Shown here one piece after another: positions 10,885 through 29,084 of a DNA stretch of 29,438 bases (position 1 is its first letter; every line of letters begins with the position of its first letter). Position numbers and translations under genes: made by a program. The notes under the pieces are model-generated. The model was not told where the DNA came from, did not search any database, and worked only from the letters and a program-made list of their open reading frames with translations. Origin of the DNA: a virus; IMG/VR virus record IMGVR_UViG_3300028569_000126, positions 1-29,438 of that record; one strand, given 5' to 3'.

Positions 10885-12432
10885 TTAAAATTCCAAAATA
10901 ATTTTAATGTCTTCTTTTTGTCTAGCATCCCTGGATACTAAAGGTCTATTATCAATATAAATTATATCTCCTGACTGTTTATTTATCTCAGGATTTGCAA
11001 GACCTGTAGTAAAACTTACTCCCAAGTTTATAACTTTACCCCCAACAGTAATTTTATTATCTGTAAATGTATTATCTATAGAAACTGATCCTACCGATTC
11101 TATGGTAATTTGTGAGGAAGATTCAAAATTATAAACTTTAGATTTACTAGTAACTTCATTATGATCAGTTTGATTTTCTTTATTCCCAAAATGTAAGGAT
11201 CTGTCTTGGATATATTTTAATACTTTAGTCTCACTATCATAAGAAGATACATATCCTCTTGCTATTCCATCAGTTACAGTTTGAGTAATTTTTTGACCAA
11301 TAACGGGAACTCCGGCAAATCCGGAATCTAGTTTAATTGCTCCTAGTGATGAAAATTGATTTTCTGTGTATATATCGGTATCTGAGTTAATCTTAGTTGG
11401 ATTTTTTATAATCCCAACTTGAGAAAATTTGGTGTCTATTGGAAAATCCTTTGTAGAATCATCAAATCTTGCATATATTAAAACTTTATCAGTTCCCAAT
11501 TCTTTGTAAATATCATATCCATGTCCCTTAGATGGTGGTATAATCGGTATTAGTTTTGCCGCACTTGTTATTCCTACGGGCTGAATACTACCTAAATCAA
11601 CTATACCCCAGGTATATCCGTATCCTCCGTTAGTTATAGTTGTTGAATTTATTTTTCCTTTACTATCTACTGTTATTGATACTCTTGCTCCATCTCCATC
11701 TCCCAATATATCAACTATTCCTGAAGTGTATCCTTCTCCACTACTTTCGATATATACTTTTTTAATTTGGTTTGGATTTGATGAACTAGAATTACCACTT
11801 TCTCTAACGCTTACAATTTGATTATCTGTTGTTATTGTATTCCAATCGTTTGGGACAACAACATATTCTGTCGAATCAAACTTTATAATGTCACTTGGAG
11901 AAACTGAAAATAGATATTTCCAAATATATCCATCTCCACTTACTCCTGCTGCTGATGGTTGCAAATCTGTAAAATTTGGTTCGTCCTGAGATTTATTTCC
12001 TTTTTGATTTGATCCAGAAGAACCGTTGTCAATACAAATATATACTTTAAACTCACTATTGATTACATAGTAATTTGAATCATATAATCTAGCTAAATTT
12101 GAAATTGGTGCGAGATTACTACTACTGTAATCGTGCCTATACATATCATATGATGTGTTAGAACTCCAAGAAACATTTCTTATAACTCTCCTTATATTAC
12201 TACCTGTAATTTTTTTCCCAAATAAACTAGTATCTTTATAGTGACTTAGATACTCTAAATTATCTGTTGGACTAGGAGTATTAGTATCCCAGGTTGCGAT
12301 TCTTCCAAAACCAACAATACCTGGATTGGGAAGACCTAAAAAAACATAATAAGAATCACTTCCCCCCGTCACTGAATTTATAAAATTAGAGGAATTTAAT
12401 ATTCTAAATTGATCAGTTATAATTGCTGCCAT
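10885..12432 (-). CDS. 8: Baseplate wedge subunit gp8
   Basis: A 515-residue protein, longer than the 334-residue T4 gp8. Landmarks match T4 gp8: GDGYIWKYLF at residues 166-175 (T4 has GDGYVWEYLF), TEYVVVPNDW at 188-197, and a C-terminus with YIDNRPL (492-498) followed by an acidic stretch and IKIILEF, like T4's MENRPP...EINILFTF. The extra length lies mostly between about 200 and 480, with Gly/Tyr-rich repeats such as SSGEGYTSGIVDILGDGDG and TNGGYGYTWGIV that resemble modules in the giant neighbour. In T4, gp8 is a dimer in each baseplate wedge. A perfect TATAAATA late promoter lies 16 nt upstream, overlapping the end of the preceding giant gene. No clear Shine-Dalgarno sequence is seen. Confidence 0.9.
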   Translation of the reverse strand: MAAIITDQFRILNSSNFINSVTGGSDSYYVFLGLPNPGIVGFGRIATWDTNTPSPTDNLEYLSHYKDTSLFGKKITGSNIRRVIRNVSWSSNTSYDMYRHDYSSSNLAPISNLARLYDSNYYVINSEFKVYICIDNGSSGSNQKGNKSQDEPNFTDLQPSAAGVSGDGYIWKYLFSVSPSDIIKFDSTEYVVVPNDWNTITTDNQIVSVRESGNSSSSNPNQIKKVYIESSGEGYTSGIVDILGDGDGARVSITVDSKGKINSTTITNGGYGYTWGIVDLGSIQPVGITSAAKLIPIIPPSKGHGYDIYKELGTDKVLIYARFDDSTKDFPIDTKFSQVGIIKNPTKINSDTDIYTENQFSSLGAIKLDSGFAGVPVIGQKITQTVTDGIARGYVSSYDSETKVLKYIQDRSLHFGNKENQTDHNEVTSKSKVYNFESSSQITIESVGSVSIDNTFTDNKITVGGKVINLGVSFTTGLANPEINKQSGDIIYIDNRPLVSRDARQKEDIKIILEF

Positions 12433-18400: not shown

Positions 18401-21400
18401 ATAATATATTTTAAAGTTAAATCCAGAAAGTGAATTGTCAGATAACTTAAATACTAAATTATTATTAAGTATTGTTTTAATTTGTGGATTTAATAACGAT
18501 ATTGTCTGATTTGATCCACCGGTACTTGCAATGCTTATTGTGGTTGGGGGAACTTTTTTTGAGTCGGAATAAGTTTCTGAAAGTTTTATTGAATTATCAT
18601 TTATTTTAAATACATAATATGATCCAGTATTTAATCCAGATGCAACCGAATTAGATGAATATAAAATTTTATCTCCTGTTTGTAGATTGTGTGAATTAAT
18701 TGTTATTATACTAGTAGAAGTATTAATACCTGTTGAGTTAAATCCAATAGGATTTATTAATACATTTCCGGTAGTTTGATCTCTTTTTACAAATATAGAT
18801 AAAGAAGTTCCAATTCCAACAGAAAGATTTGGATATACTTTTAAATTAATATTATCATTATTAGTAAGACCGTGAAAAGTTGATATTGAAACAGTAGATT
18901 TAATTTTTTCAACTTTTCCAGTTACGGTACTATTAGTACTAGTAAATGAATATTGATCACTATCAGAACCGTTGTTTCTAAAATAAACCTCAGATGAATT
19001 TAAATCAGTTTTAATCCCTATTGTATTTTTGTTTTTATTTACTACAAATATAGATGAAGGTAAACTAAACTGTGGTCCATTTGGGGATGTTGATATCGAA
19101 ATAGGATTACCATTTGTTGTAAATATTACTGACTGATTGTTTATAAATGGATGATTTTCAATATATATTGATTGGGTAAGAATGTCTCTAGTAATTGAAT
19201 AGCTAGCAAAATTGAATGATATTGCATTTGTAATTCCGGAAGTTGTTCCTACACCAACGGAATTTTTTGGATTAAAATATACTTTATTAGGAACTTCCGA
19301 CTCAAAATATTCTGTTTTTTTAGTAATTTTAAACGAATTTGGAATAAAATTTATCCGGGAAGTTGCGGTGTGTGATATTCCAGAAGATCCTCTTGATACT
19401 TTTAATATATTCTGAGATGAGAATACTTCCAATACTTTTAATATTTCACTACCAATTGAAATATTACTGTCTACTGATATGTTTTCAGGTATTTGAATAA
19501 CATATATTTCGGTGGTAAATCCAGAAGACCCTGCAGGAATACTGGTTAAAATATTAGAACTATATGAGGTTACTCCAATTTTATAAGAAGAATTTAATTG
19601 AGATAAACTAGTTGATAATCCAGAAATAACAACTACATCATTGTTAGATAAATTATGGGATGGTAAAATTGTAACTTGCAATTCTCTATCATTATTTCTG
19701 GTAAATATAGCATTTTCGTATGTTTGAACACTAGTATTTAATTCTACAATATCTTTACCTTCTATACTAGATACCGTTGCACTTAATCCACCTCCCATAG
19801 TGTTACTATCATCAAAAGATAAAATATCATTTATTTTATAATTTACTCCAGGAAAAATTATATCAAAATCAGTTATACTTCCATCAGATACTGATTCTAC
19901 AACAGATTCTTGATTTGTAAAATCCCTAGTTTCAATTATGAAATCATTATCTGCATATTCATCTGAAATTTTGTATGGGAATGTATTCCTAAGTAAAGAT
20001 GAATTATTAAAATCGAATGTTTGATTCAGTATAGAGTTTTCTTTCAGTGTATTAGATCTGTACTTGTTTCCGATAAAATATGGAAACTCTGGTACTAAAG
20101 AACTACTGAGAGTTGCGAAGTAGGCATATATACCATTTGGAAACTCTGGAGTTTTTCCAAATCTTCCATTATTTTCATCTAAATCGCCAGAATTTGTGTA
20201 AGTATAATCTTCAACAAAAAATCCTGGTGCAAATGAAGGAGGTCTATCAATAATATTTGATACATTTAAAGAATATCCAGATGATAATCTTTTTACTATA
20301 GATATAGTCTCTGGATCAGAAAATCCATATGGACCATATATTGGGTTTCCATCGTATGCCCATCCAATTATATTAGAAACTTTTTCCCCAGTATCGCCAA
20401 AAGAATTTCTTAATATCTCAAAATATCCACATACTGAATATTGTAATTTATTATTAGACTCAAATATAAGTTCGTCACCAAATCTTGAATTGTTATTAAC
20501 AGTCAATGCTCTAATTCTGGTTCTAAGTAGTGCACCATATCCAGAAGGTTTAACAATAACATTTGTTAATTCATCAGAATAATTTATTCCTGAATTTATA
20601 ATTTTAACATCTATTATTTTTCCATTAGATATTATCGGTCTCAGTTCAGCTCCTGATCCAGCTCCAGATGAATCGGTTACAATTAGGTCTGGTATTGAAT
20701 AGTAATCTATCCCAGAGTATTGTATATTTACAAAAGAAATTCTACCATTTCTAATAATTGGACGCAACTTAGCATCTTTACCATTTTTTATTAATATTGT
20801 TTGATTTTTTTCTAAATTTAAAATTGTAGATCCATAACCAGTTCCATTTTCGTATAGATAAGTATCAATAATACTTCCTTTAACTACTGGAGTTGTCACT
20901 AGTGATTGATATTGTGTCACTAATCCAACTGGGGAATATTCTATAGAAACTGAAATATCAGGATAACTGAAATATTGATATCCTGATCCAATCGAAGGTA
21001 ATTTTATATAATTTTCACGATTATAATTTGATATATTTGTTCCACCAATTCCAGCATCGCATAATCTAAAATAGTCTTTATCATTCGATAAAATATAATA
21101 TTGAGATACTGTTGATATTCCAATTGAAGATGTTTGATAATTATATTTAACTAATTCTCCACTATTAAATCCATGATTTTCAAAACTAATGGTATGGTTT
21201 ATTGTGGATATTCCAGATGATTTGACGATTAATTTTCTGTTAGTATATCCACTTCCTTGATTTAATATTTTGATTTCTGATATGGTATTTTTATATGATG
21301 AAGTTTTAAATTTGTGAACTCCCGAATTATTGTTTCCATTAAAAAATACCGTATTAATTCCTGAATAATAATCTGATATATTCTGATAAAGTCTGATAGT

Positions 21401-24047: not shown

Positions 24048-25937
24048 TTATTCTCTAATTAAGTTTCCGTTCGAATAACTTGAGGTGTAAAAATCTCTCA
24101 CAAATGAGGTTCCTGAAATCTCATCACCAGAAGAAATTACATCTTTTACCATATTTATTGTACTTCTAGAAAGATTTAAATTTAGATAAAGATCATTTAA
24201 TCCAACAACATCATTTGATTCTGGAAATGCCTGTATTTCTATAATGTCATTTTCTCGTAATGTAGAAATGATTTTTATAGTTGAGAGGTTAATTTCTCCT
24301 TTCATATAATCTACAGTTCCTGCAGATTTCACAATTACTCTTAGTTTATCATTACCGAGTGGTTTCACCAGCGAGAGAACGCCCGTTCTATTATCAGAAT
24401 TAGGAGTATCGCTTAAGTATACAAAATCAGATTCTCCAACAACCTTAAATCCTGTAGATTTGATATTATACCCAGAAGTGTTTACATGAAATCTATTACC
24501 AAAACATAATTCATATTGTGTAAAGATATTCTTAGATACTCTTAAGTCTCTTCGTATTCTAACTTTAGTAATATTAGAGCTAATTGCCACATCTGTATTG
24601 TCGATAATTTGAAGAATCTTACTGTACTTAAGTCTTCCACCAAATTTATTTAAATCTATAGAATTCGAGTATTTTGATAGTGAGTTTATAATTTTTGATT
24701 TTAAATACTCAACCGATGAAACTTGAGAATAATTATAGTAAATTGATGAATCAATCTCAACATAAAGAAGTTTAAGATCTACTATTTCTTGGTTAATTCC
24801 AGAAATACTATATTGCTTTAGGTCAGATAAAATTCTTGATTTTAAAAAATCCGAAACATATGTTCCATTTTTTGGTTTTATGCTAATTATAACAGTCCCA
24901 AATTTTGGAGGATCTAATTCTTCTCCACCAATAATAGATACTGATTCGGTATCTGGGTATATTTGTTTAATAATTGCTTCATAATCTCTTGCAGTAACTG
25001 CTCGGTACTGTGATGCATATATTCGTGGAGCAAAATATTTAATTGAGTCTAAAGGTTCTATTCCAGATCCATTTTGAGATTTTTGTGTTACCGTTAGAGA
25101 TACTGAATCTGGATTTATATTTGCACCATTTGCAGCTTCTAAATTTCCAGAAAAAGAAAATGAAGATGCTCCGTTACCATCTTCACCGTCGGTAATAATA
25201 TAATTTACTGTAATCACAGAATTATTTTCTAATTTTTTTCCAATGATTCCATCACCAAAAAGTAGTTCATATTTTTCATCCTGAACTTCCTGCAATAAGA
25301 AAATTTTAGATTCTGAATTTACATTTAAAATATTGTCGGCAATAAAGTATTCAACTCCTAGCCCAATATCATTAATTCCTTTCACATACACTGCGATAGT
25401 ATCAGTATCAATAAATGAATTGTTTAAAATAAATCTTTGATCTAATGACCCATCAACCGTAAAATTTTTACTTAAGAAAGTTCCTTGATATACATCAATA
25501 TTATCAAATTTTACGACTCCTGATTTTACGCTTGCCGATATATTATTTGGAACTGAAAATGTATATGAAGTATCATTTATGCTTCCTATGCACACCAGAC
25601 CCGCCTTTAGGGTGACTGTAGGAGTATCCTCAGTAATAGATGCAGTGAGAGATACTAGCGCCTTGGAGGATGTTCTAGAGCGAGGTACATATCCAATATT
25701 TCTTGCTAGTGATACCACATTTTCCCTGAGAGTTGCAGAATCTAAGAAAGATTCGTTCACAATCATATTTGAGTTAAATGCCGTAATATAAGTATTATAT
25801 GCAAGTGTATCGATAAGTACTGAAAAATTAGATCCTTCGAAATCAAAATCAGTAAATGATGAATTTGATCTTAAATAATCTTTGATTGATGTTTTTATCT
25901 GATCGAAATCTAGATTTGTGAATTTGGTGAAAGGCAT
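24048..25937 (-). CDS. 6: Baseplate wedge subunit gp6
   Basis: A 629-residue protein, close to T4 gp6 (660). The N-terminus has the usual gp6/baseplate-J-like start: FDQIKTSIKDYLRSNSSFTD, then SNFSVLIDTLAYNTYITAFN and an ATLRENVVSLARNIGYVPRS helix. The FGDGIIGKKL motif at 227-236 and the ARDYEAIIKQIYPDTESV segment in the second half are typical of the baseplate J/gp6 fold. In T4, gp6 dimers form the ring that links the wedges and drive the sheath-contraction switch. It follows gp25 by one base and precedes the giant gp7-position gene by one base, the classical wedge operon order. No separate promoter was seen, so it is probably co-transcribed with gp25. Confidence 0.93.
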   Translation of the reverse strand: MPFTKFTNLDFDQIKTSIKDYLRSNSSFTDFDFEGSNFSVLIDTLAYNTYITAFNSNMIVNESFLDSATLRENVVSLARNIGYVPRSRTSSKALVSLTASITEDTPTVTLKAGLVCIGSINDTSYTFSVPNNISASVKSGVVKFDNIDVYQGTFLSKNFTVDGSLDQRFILNNSFIDTDTIAVYVKGINDIGLGVEYFIADNILNVNSESKIFLLQEVQDEKYELLFGDGIIGKKLENNSVITVNYIITDGEDGNGASSFSFSGNLEAANGANINPDSVSLTVTQKSQNGSGIEPLDSIKYFAPRIYASQYRAVTARDYEAIIKQIYPDTESVSIIGGEELDPPKFGTVIISIKPKNGTYVSDFLKSRILSDLKQYSISGINQEIVDLKLLYVEIDSSIYYNYSQVSSVEYLKSKIINSLSKYSNSIDLNKFGGRLKYSKILQIIDNTDVAISSNITKVRIRRDLRVSKNIFTQYELCFGNRFHVNTSGYNIKSTGFKVVGESDFVYLSDTPNSDNRTGVLSLVKPLGNDKLRVIVKSAGTVDYMKGEINLSTIKIISTLRENDIIEIQAFPESNDVVGLNDLYLNLNLSRSTINMVKDVISSGDEISGTSFVRDFYTSSYSNGNLIRE

Positions 25938-25938
25938 T

Positions 25939-26340
25939 TTATCTTGTTGCCTCTAGTATGAATGAGTACTCTTGAGTTGGAAATTCTTGCCCTATAATAT
26001 CAAAAATTACTGTCACATTAAAAGAATTAGAGTCGGGCGTCGGATCGACATCGATAATTACATTTTCGACCCTGGGCTCAAAGTTACTGATCGAAATCTC
26101 AATCTGCCTTTGAATTACTGAAGCCGTACCAAAGTCAATAAACTCAAACAGACTTTGTGTAATATCAGATCCTAAAAGAGAATTAAAAAATCTTTCTGTA
26201 GGAATAGTCTGAACAATATTTCTTACGGATCTACGAATCGCATTTTCATTTTTTAGTATTGGTAAATCCTTTGTCACTGGATGTGGTTCAAAGGATAGAC
26301 TGATATCTTTAAATGATCTGGATATCCTTTGAATTGACAT
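25939..26340 (-). CDS. 25: Baseplate wedge subunit gp25 (gpW/gp25 family)
   Basis: A 133-residue protein, almost the same length as T4 gp25 (132). It shows the family pattern: an N-terminal segment with DLPILKNENAIRRSVRNIV (residues 25-43), then the conserved EPR at 88-90 (SNFEPRVENV), followed by a beta-strand C-terminus. In T4, gp25 is part of the wedge core with gp6 and gp53 and nucleates the sheath. A perfect late promoter, TATAAATA, lies 20 nt upstream of its ATG, so it heads the transcript that includes gp6. Confidence 0.95.
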   Translation of the reverse strand: MSIQRISRSFKDISLSFEPHPVTKDLPILKNENAIRRSVRNIVQTIPTERFFNSLLGSDITQSLFEFIDFGTASVIQRQIEISISNFEPRVENVIIDVDPTPDSNSFNVTVIFDIIGQEFPTQEYSFILEATR

Positions 26341-27337: not shown

Positions 27338-28096
27338 TTAGATTACTCTCATTTTTTCATGACCAACACGAATACGAGGATCACACCAAATCTCAAAACC
27401 GGCTTCTTTTGCATCGAGACAGAATGATACATCTTCTCCACACATATCCTGAACTTCTCCAGACTCAAAAACTTGCATCTTAGGAGCAAACCAGGGATAC
27501 TTCATTTCTTCGTGCTCAAATACTCCTTTTTTAATCAGAATCCAACCAAACCCGGCATAATCCACTGTAAATGGTTTACGACGCTTTGAGATACTCTCTA
27601 CATTTTCGTGATTCATCACTCCACCATTATTTCGGAAATCGTCCTCTTCCATCCAATGAGCAACTGATGTAGTGACACCATCTTCTGTTGCATACCAACC
27701 AGATGCAATATCTTGATTCATTAAAACTAACTGATAAAACTTCTCAGTATTAAAAACTATATCACTATCAATCCAAAGTTGCCAGTCATAATTTAATTTT
27801 CCGTCCCAGGGAAGTTGGTCTGGTCCGCGAAGAACATTTGCACCTAGACACTTACATCTGGCGAAGTTCACCATAGATGAATAGTCTTGTGAAATTTGAA
27901 TACTTGCACCATTTTGAACAATATCAAAACAAAGTTGAACGAACGATTTTAAGAATGTATATGATACTCCTTTTCCGGGAAGACAAAATACAATCGATTT
28001 TCCTTTAATAATTTCTCTTGCTTTATCGTAATCCCATTCCAATTCAGAGCTTGCCGCCGTAGGGGCTTTTGCTTTTACAGTAAATCCTTTTGCCAT
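27338..28096 (-). CDS. Glycosyltransferase, GT-A-like fold (phage type)
   Basis: A 252-residue protein. After a ~30-residue leader it has KGKSIVFCLPGKGVSYTFLK (32-51), the first strand and nucleotide-binding turn. A LWIDSDIVF strand carries the DxD-type metal/nucleotide motif Asp110-Ser-Asp112. C-terminal GEDVSFC (220-226) and a final GHEK (245-248) match the acceptor/base and metal-ligand positions of GT-A glycosyltransferases. It probably transfers a sugar from a nucleotide-sugar. The acceptor (phage protein, DNA base or host glycan) cannot be told from sequence. It has no membrane anchor or signal peptide. A sigma-70-like promoter and a shared 18-bp element lie upstream, so it may be expressed earlier than the structural genes. 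Confidence 0.82.
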   Translation of the reverse strand: MAKGFTVKAKAPTAASSELEWDYDKAREIIKGKSIVFCLPGKGVSYTFLKSFVQLCFDIVQNGASIQISQDYSSMVNFARCKCLGANVLRGPDQLPWDGKLNYDWQLWIDSDIVFNTEKFYQLVLMNQDIASGWYATEDGVTTSVAHWMEEDDFRNNGGVMNHENVESISKRRKPFTVDYAGFGWILIKKGVFEHEEMKYPWFAPKMQVFESGEVQDMCGEDVSFCLDAKEAGFEIWCDPRIRVGHEKMRVI

Positions 28097-28119: not shown

Positions 28120-28148
28120 ATTTTACGACATTATATATCATTTGTCAA
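28120..28148 (-). promoter_or_regulatory. Promoter region of the glycosyltransferase gene, with shared 18-bp element
   Basis: The minus strand has TTGACA (28143-28148), a 17-bp spacer and TAAAAT (28120-28125). A second possible -10, TATAAT, lies at 28130-28135. The interval 28126-28143 (plus strand CGACATTATATATCATTT) is repeated with one mismatch before the next gene upstream. The promoter overlaps the 3' end of that gene. Which -10 is used is not decidable from sequence. Confidence 0.55.
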
Positions 28149-28319
28149 CTCGGGGGTTTCTGTTAAAACTAAATCAGACCCTTCTAATGATATTTTTATT
28201 AGACTATCTTCATACCATGATAGTTCGTTTATAATTTGCTCGGGGATAGTTATAAAATACTGACCGGTAATTGGATCAATCTGTAGGGACTCAAAAATTT
28301 CTTCGGATTTTTTTTTCAT
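28131..28319 (-). CDS. AbrB/SpoVT-like small DNA-binding protein (putative)
   Basis: A 62-residue protein. After a short charged lead (MKKKSEEIFESLQID) it has a swapped-hairpin-like pattern: PITGQYFITIPEQIINELSW, then 'YEDSLIKISLEGSDLVLTE'. The 'I-P-x-x-I-I-N-E-L-x-W-x-x-x-D-x-I' core is the usual signature of AbrB-type antitoxins and transition-state regulators. Such proteins bind DNA as dimers. No toxin-like partner gene is adjacent, so I infer a phage transcription regulator rather than an antitoxin. It is the last confident minus-strand gene before the repeat region. It may regulate itself or the glycosyltransferase, because both are preceded by the same 18-bp element. Confidence 0.75.
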   Translation of the reverse strand: MKKKSEEIFESLQIDPITGQYFITIPEQIINELSWYEDSLIKISLEGSDLVLTETPELTNDI

Positions 28320-28488: not shown

Positions 28489-28524
28489 TCACGAACGCAC
28501 GAATAATCACGAACGCACGAATAA
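28489..28524. repeat. 18-bp tandem direct repeat (two copies)
   Basis: TCACGAACGCACGAATAA occurs at 28489-28506 and again at 28507-28524 with no gap. The second copy runs into the 47-bp repeat family. Confidence 0.9.
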
Positions 28525-28612
28525 TTATAATTAGCGATAAGATATAATAACTGATAGTCACGCACGAATAATTATAATTAGCGATAAGATATAATAACTG
28601 ATAGTCACGCAC
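28514..28612. repeat. 47-bp AT-rich tandem direct repeat (two copies plus a 5-bp start)
   Basis: Two identical 47-bp units at 28514-28560 and 28561-28607 begin CGCACGAATAATTATAATTA and end CTGATAGTCA. A third copy stops after CGCAC (28608-28612). Each unit contains the palindrome TAATTATAATTA. The composition is strongly AT-rich, so it could serve as an easily melted segment or a protein-binding repeat. Confidence 0.9.
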
Positions 28613-28696
28613 AAATTAATTAATACTGATAGTTATTATAAATTCACGAAGGGTTTGCTTAACTGTTTATTTTTTTATATGATAATTGTAATTAAC

Positions 28697-28778
28697 AATC
28701 TCGGTGAGTATTATTATACTGTGCTAACTAATCTCGGTGAGTATTATTATACTGTGCTAACTAATCTCGGTGAGTATT
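28697..28778. repeat. 33-bp iteron-like direct repeats (two full copies and a 16-bp third start)
   Basis: Units start AATCTCGGTGAGTATTATTA and end ACTGTGCTAACT, at 28697-28729 and 28730-28762. The third copy (from 28763) matches for 16 bases and then diverges into the first DnaA-like box, after which the 'ATACTGTG' part of the unit resumes. A period of 33 bp is close to three helical turns. Confidence 0.9.
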
Positions 28779-28964
28779 CCACAAGCATACTGTGGCGTTT
28801 TCCACAGTATGCTGTGAGTTTTACACAGGTATTCCACAGAACTACCGAAGTATTCCACAACCTTATGAGTTTTCCACAGACATTCGGAGGTTTTCCACAG
28901 GGCGCCTTATGAGTTTTCCACAGATATCTATGAGTTTTCCACAGATATCTATGAGTTTTCCACA
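28775..28964 (+). promoter_or_regulatory. Array of ten phased DnaA-box-like nonamers (putative phage origin or DnaA decoy)
   Basis: Six exact TTTTCCACA boxes start at 28798, 28870, 28891, 28914, 28935 and 28956. Three TATTCCACA boxes start at 28775, 28830 and 28851, and one TTTTACACA at 28819. All read on the plus strand. Start-to-start distances are 23, 21, 11, 21, 19, 21, 23, 21 and 21 bp, so nearly every step is a whole number of helical turns. TTTTCCACA is the DnaA-box form reported for cyanobacterial origins. The array follows iteron-like repeats and precedes an AT-rich segment. I infer binding by host DnaA, either for phage replication or to titrate the host initiator. Binding by another repeat-recognising protein cannot be excluded. 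Confidence 0.75.
28785..28812. repeat. 11-bp perfect inverted repeat embracing a DnaA-like box
   Basis: GCATACTGTGG (28785-28795) and CCACAGTATGC (28802-28812) are exact reverse complements separated by the 6-nt loop CGTTTT. The loop plus the right arm contains the second box of the array (28798-28806). It could form a stable cruciform in single-stranded or supercoiled DNA. Confidence 0.85.
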
Positions 28965-29055: not shown

Positions 29056-29084
29056 TTGACAATCTTACAGTCGTGTGTTATAAT
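29056..29084 (+). promoter_or_regulatory. Perfect-consensus sigma-70-type promoter, rightward
   Basis: TTGACA (29056-29061), a 17-bp spacer and TATAAT (29079-29084) match the bacterial sigma-70 consensus exactly. T4-like cyanophages use host-sigma-type promoters for early genes. It points away from the minus-strand late genes, so it probably starts an early transcript continuing beyond the right edge. No plus-strand gene starts within the remaining ~350 bases. Confidence 0.8.

Follow-up and report, generated by a model that had tools for sequence, protein, structure and literature searches.

The array and its surroundings

The window analysed here is a 29,438-b virus fragment from IMG/VR (IMGVR_UViG_3300028569_000126). 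Leftwards from a dense array of DnaA-type nonamers, its minus strand presents phrog_661, phrog_1574, two small ORFs, speD, a further ORF, gp25, gp6 and a very long wedge ORF (Table 1). This gene content bears out the T4-like cyanophage context given in the preliminary description: gp25, gp6 and gp8-type wedge proteins are present together with speD, and the isolate nearest to the window by DNA is Synechococcus phage S-SRM01, of the Kyanoviridae. AT content is locally lower in the array than on either side of it, and the contig stops 474 bp beyond the array. No tRNA gene was found in the window, and Rfam families gave no match in the window or in four isolate regions.

Table 1 Features of the window at and around the array
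Feature	Position	Strand	Remarks
gp6-like baseplate wedge subunit	24048..25937	-	positional landmark
gp25-like baseplate wedge subunit	25939..26340	-	landmark; array ~2.5 kb upstream
phrog_1574 gene	27338..28096	-	weak glycosyltransferase-like match; first larger gene beside array
phrog_661 small gene	28131..28319	-	S-SRM01 homologue annotated as DNA-binding domain-containing protein
47-bp tandem repeat, 2.3 copies	28513..28622		AT-rich
33-bp tandem repeat, 2.6 copies	28697..28778		abuts array; closely similar 33-bp repeat in relatives L130 and L317
Array of ten DnaA-type nonamers	28775..28964	+	antisense to wedge genes; 6 exact TTTTCCACA and 4 one-mismatch, single orientation
Perfect 12-bp inverted repeat AGCATACTGTGG...CCACAGTATGCT	28784..28813		around box 2; also scored terminator-like
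Perfect sigma-70 promoter TTGACA-N17-TATAAT	29056..29084	+	TG before -10; ~90 bp past array, pointing away; conserved in L317

A motif scan of the window recovered all ten of the nonamers first described at this site, six exact and four with one mismatch, in a single orientation. They start at 28775, 28798, 28819, 28830, 28851, 28870, 28891, 28914, 28935 and 28956 on the plus strand, which reproduces exactly the steps originally listed (23, 21, 11, 21, 19, 21, 23, 21 and 21 bp). Six of the nonamers are TTTTCCACA, three are TATTCCACA and one is TTTTACACA. The usual DnaA-box consensus, TTWTNCACA, has an invariant position 2; because TATTCCACA deviates at that position, three of the ten boxes may be weak. 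The total of one-mismatch nonamers in the whole window (16) is ordinary, and it is the clustering that stands out: in 300 first-order Markov simulations the maximum was 3 nonamers per strand within 199 bp, as against the 10 observed. The spacing also lies near multiples of the helical turn, as had been suspected, with a vector length R of 0.86 at 10.6 bp and p ~0.0016 when compared with randomly drawn spacings of 10-31 bp, a value to be read with the caveat that the array is partly a 21-bp tandem repeat.

Comparison with close relatives provides insight on constraint. L317 (IMGVR_UViG_3300027772_000792), which was picked by protein similarity and not by its boxes, presents ten boxes, nine of them exact, spaced in the window's direction by 23, 21, 11, 21, 19, 21, 22, 22 and 21 bp; the edge of the L130 contig carries the first part of a window-type array. 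Of the 90 box positions 3 differ between the window and L317, compared with 29 of the 106 spacer positions (Fisher p 3e-6). Judged by these differences, the boxes are under selection relative to the spacers and evolve far more slowly. Boxes are rare among the more distant relatives chosen by phrog_1574 or phrog_661 similarity, and few of the nearest protein-level relatives have them.

The partial 21-bp repetition invites the reading that the array is a neutral tandem duplication, or a coding repeat, with no function. Against it stand the slow evolution of the boxes and the fact that distant genera, too, have clusters at this position, with unrelated spacers. A coding repeat is ruled out, as no reading frame is open across the array in both the window and L317. 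Contradicted by constraint and synteny alike, a functionless repeat is highly improbable.

Host-type boxes and their likely binding protein

The nonamer TTTTCCACA is identical to the published cyanobacterial DnaA box (PMC4674748), and its flanks and spacings are as in host chromosomal clusters, in agreement with the cyanobacterial type originally assigned to the boxes. In a three-box scan of GTDB the matches were mostly cyanobacteria (45 of 80 among the matches listed), and clusters of this kind occur in 162 of 291 cyanobacterial genomes, while reversed-pattern controls gave none. Chromosomal clusters and phage boxes have in common G flanks (in phage, G in 72% at -1 and in 66% at +10) as well as spacing peaks at 11-12 and 20-22 bp; the search pattern biases the -1 G among the host clusters but not the +10 G or the 21-bp peak. 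Cyanobacterial oriC and the chromosomal clusters resemble the array in exact TTTTCCACA, in the G on both flanks, in both spacing classes and in the use of several boxes in one orientation. The difference is one of place, since oriC sits beside dnaN, whereas the phage array lies upstream of the baseplate operon of a T4-like phage. DnaA is essential in S. elongatus and dispensable in some cyanobacteria (PMC7198777).

From the identity of the box and its arrangement we infer that host DnaA binds the array. The repeats could instead bind a phage-encoded protein of DnaA-like specificity, and the small phrog_661 gene beside the array, with its DNA-binding annotation in S-SRM01, offers a candidate. 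The phrog_661 protein, however, is also found in many box-free relatives and in S-SRM01 itself, which is cluster-free, and the match to host chromosomal clusters in 9-mer, flanks and spacing points away from a phage protein. In addition, the Bac_DnaA_C domain, which is the C-terminal, box-binding domain of DnaA, was not found in the 18 isolate genomes examined; in this the phages differ from the setting of cyanobacterial oriC, and, by this domain, no DnaA of their own was found in these isolates. A phage-encoded binder is for these reasons unlikely.

A recurrent locus upstream of the baseplate genes

Eighteen T4-like cyanophage isolates were compared by exact-box maps, by their upstream regions and by a search for one-orientation pairs of TTWTNCACA. 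Tight clusters are present in ten (Syn9, P-SSM7, S-WAM1, DSL-LC03, DSL-LC02, S-RIM12, S-PM2, Syn19, S-SM2 and S-SKS1) and absent from the other eight (S-SRM01, P-SSM2, P-SSM4, P-HM1, S-SSM7, Bellamy, S-RSM4 and Sf-CH5). All of the isolate clusters lie upstream of baseplate gene 25 or 6, within a range of 1.6-10 kb: the distance to gp25 is 1.6-7.7 kb in eight genomes (tblastn), and that to gp6 is 8.1 kb in S-WAM1 and 9.3 kb in S-SKS1. No second pair of exact boxes within 70 bp was found elsewhere in the 18 genomes. When all letter permutations of the nonamer were compared (n=1260), TTTTCCACA formed clusters in 9 of the 10 genomes tested and the runner-up in 3. A tree of gp6 places the window as sister of S-SKS1 (96/91); across this tree the presence and absence of boxes require at least six changes, with the locus constant.

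The preliminary description had proposed a search of related cyanophages for clusters at the same place and had counted absence of the array from all close relatives among the findings that would speak against its proposal. Such absence is not observed: the closest relatives carry the element, as do 10 of the 18 isolates, at the same place upstream of gp25/gp6. Its presentation as the property of one phage needs revision: the array is indeed present there, but the locus is family-wide and patchily distributed. Many T4-like cyanophages carry, at this fixed locus, a host-type, phased and selected cluster of DnaA boxes.

The organization around the boxes has recurring parts. In S-SKS1 three DnaA boxes spaced by 21 bp have 22-bp tandem repeats on one side and an AT-rich stretch on the other, within a 490-bp gene-free gap. 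Several isolates show the order of boxes, AT-rich stretch, an element resembling GTGCTCAG...CTTAGCAC, and promoter. A conserved element with hairpin potential, GTGYTC..ATTG.AGTCTTAGCACG, occurs ~50-100 bp past the boxes and is followed in most cases by a sigma-70 promoter; its sites are in Syn9 (52565-52730), P-SSM7 (45973-46150), Syn19 (50629-50800), S-RIM12 (47705-47860) and S-PM2 (19231-19400). Around the box cluster of S-PM2 (L262, 17000-20000), several annotated tRNAs were not recovered by ARAGORN, and either the coordinates or the calls may be wrong.

Metagenomic viruses extend this pattern. An IMG/VR scan that required three exact boxes and ignored gene content returned at least 120 stretches. 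Among the matches listed (120), protein coverage by seven isolates was at least 30% in 49 and at least 10% in 74, and gp25, gp6 or phrog_1574 was found in 54, the cluster being upstream in all of them. Taken gene by gene, again among the matches listed, clusters are upstream and never downstream in 48/48, 44/44 and 55/55 cases for gp25, gp6 and phrog_1574, respectively; as the loci span ~10 kb, the cluster-gene distance is bounded by design, while the direction is free. Same-orientation spacings of 11-12 bp (29) and 20-22 bp (61) make up most of the 110 recorded, and opposite-orientation spacings are mostly 13 and 19. Most phages with clusters have 2-5 boxes, and the number reaches ten per genome.

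Two observations on these contigs are of separate interest. The 284-kb contig IMGVR_UViG_3300027541_000009 presents two clusters ~200 kb apart (L049 and L086), each upstream of a phrog_1574 match, and these are either a duplicated locus or the product of a joined assembly. About 46 of the 120 cluster contigs among the matches listed (e.g. L015, L024, L037, L047 and L051) have little or no T4-like cyanophage protein match; many contigs without Kyanoviridae proteins have another GC content and steps of 11-12 bp. Clusters of DnaA boxes may occur in other phage groups too.

Promoters, known origins and the probable role of the element

Promoters were scanned for the sigma-70 consensus only, within 160 bp of the clusters, where the background is ~2%. 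On the side of the wedge genes, strong promoters read towards those genes in 20 of 51 cases and into the cluster in 5 of 51; on the other side they read away in 14 of 44 and into the cluster in 0 of 44. Outward promoters on both sides are what an origin lying between diverging units would be expected to show. An AT-rich stretch adjoins the boxes in S-SKS1 and several other isolates, and over 49 clusters there is no consistent signal of this kind. Cumulative GC skew, computed for nine complete genomes, does not mark out the cluster site, but skew is confounded by the one-sided gene orientation and was dropped as a test for an origin.

The same promoters would fit an early transcription hub, in which host DnaA acts as a transcription factor on the adjacent sigma-70 promoters and ties early genes to DnaA and growth state with no start of replication. 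Strong promoters are far commoner within 160 bp of the clusters than in the background and point outward on both sides, which is consistent with such a hub, as are the retention of the window promoter in L317 and the position of the loci among many small ORFs, which are likely early genes. From phage to phage, however, the promoter differs in its distance from the boxes and in the side on which it lies, unlike a typical activator or repressor site, and for many clusters the scan found no strong promoter. We regard this reading as rather unlikely, though it is the likeliest of the rivals to an origin.

A third use of bound DnaA would be titration. The E. coli locus datA, a chromosomal regulator that titrates DnaA, is likewise a DnaA-box cluster away from oriC, and the array might in a similar manner soak up host DnaA and halt initiation on the host chromosome. 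With as many as ten boxes in each genome, and with the phage genome multiplying during infection, such an effect would grow, and boxes selected over spacers agree with it. Yet a decoy needs neither the fixed position nor the flanking promoters nor the conserved spacing, all of which are seen, and the array differs from datA in lying, with those promoters, on a lytic phage. The 2-5 boxes of most phages are also few compared with the DnaA molecules that a cell usually contains. A decoy is quite improbable; the fixed location, the flanking promoters and the phasing all speak more for an origin or a regulatory hub than for a mere decoy.

We place at about one half the probability that the array exemplifies a syntenic cis-element, bound by host DnaA, which occurs in T4-like cyanophages (Kyanoviridae and their near relatives) and most likely serves as an origin of phage replication. 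It counts against this reading that T4-like phages already possess a replisome of their own and recombination-dependent replication. Host DnaA would bind the exact boxes, which lie one or two helical turns apart and mostly on one face of the DNA. The resulting filament could bend or open the adjacent promoter-flanked DNA, possibly aided by outward transcription from the sigma-70 promoters. A phage replisome of the gp59/gp41/gp43 type might then load for the first rounds of replication, to be followed by recombination-dependent replication; this loading is suggested by T4 and by the T4-like replication genes of these phages. With 8 of the 18 isolates lacking the element and at least six changes on the gp6 tree, it cannot be the sole way by which these phages start replication. 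More tentatively, many T4-like cyanophages may start the first round at a single host-DnaA-dependent origin upstream of gene 25, repeatedly lost and regained at the same site, despite a full T4-type replisome.

Known origins offer partial parallels to the origin proposed here. T4 has the R-loop origins oriF and oriG and the iteron-bearing oriE, which needs an early promoter (PMC3016281). Located 1.7 kb upstream of gene 6 of the baseplate wedge operon, oriE offers a loose positional parallel; it contains repeats, and the promoter on which it depends is an early (sigma-70) one. These repeats, however, are 24-bp units that form part of the gene 5 coding sequence and are not DnaA boxes, so that position is comparable and sequence is not, and homology to the oriE iterons was rejected. 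A same-strand TTWTNCACA pair of the kind searched was not found in T4. The origin oriF (ori uvsY) is likewise promoter-associated and beside gene 25, but it is an R-loop origin from a MotA middle promoter, without DnaA boxes and on the opposite side of gene 25, and was dropped as the positional counterpart. Among mobile elements, P1 oriR and pSC101 use host DnaA at their own origins, together with a Rep protein and iterons of their own; they serve stable low-copy replication, whereas the array is in a lytic T4-like phage. For Syn9, a review cites an in-silico prediction of a single theta origin (PMC2984593). An incomplete search of the literature returned no paper that treats DnaA boxes as a feature of cyanophages or T4-like phages.

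T4-like cyanophages are among the commonest viruses of oceans and lakes, and on how they begin DNA copying the review consulted cites only the prediction for Syn9 (PMC2984593). The syntenic DnaA-box locus provides a precise candidate in the cultured phages Syn9, S-PM2, P-SSM7, S-SM2, S-SKS1 and DSL-LC03. If it is an origin, the host initiator would fire a T4-type replisome, tying infection to host growth and light; a DnaA-dependent first round would couple phage replication to the host initiator and the cell cycle. If it is a decoy or a switch, it would be a new device for host take-over.

Box-negative phages show a different repeat in the same part of the genome. The palindrome TCTMGWCKAGA is clustered in L007 at 10947-11046 (90907-90996 of the S-SRM01 record) and in P-SSM2 at ~65.99-66.12 kb, and at least two copies are present in 25 IMG/VR relatives. 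It was rejected as a substitute iteron of box-negative phages, since it co-occurs with boxes in the L150/L019 contig and one P-SSM2 copy overlaps the spacer of a TTGACA/TATAAT promoter. The palindrome looks more like the operator of some repressor.
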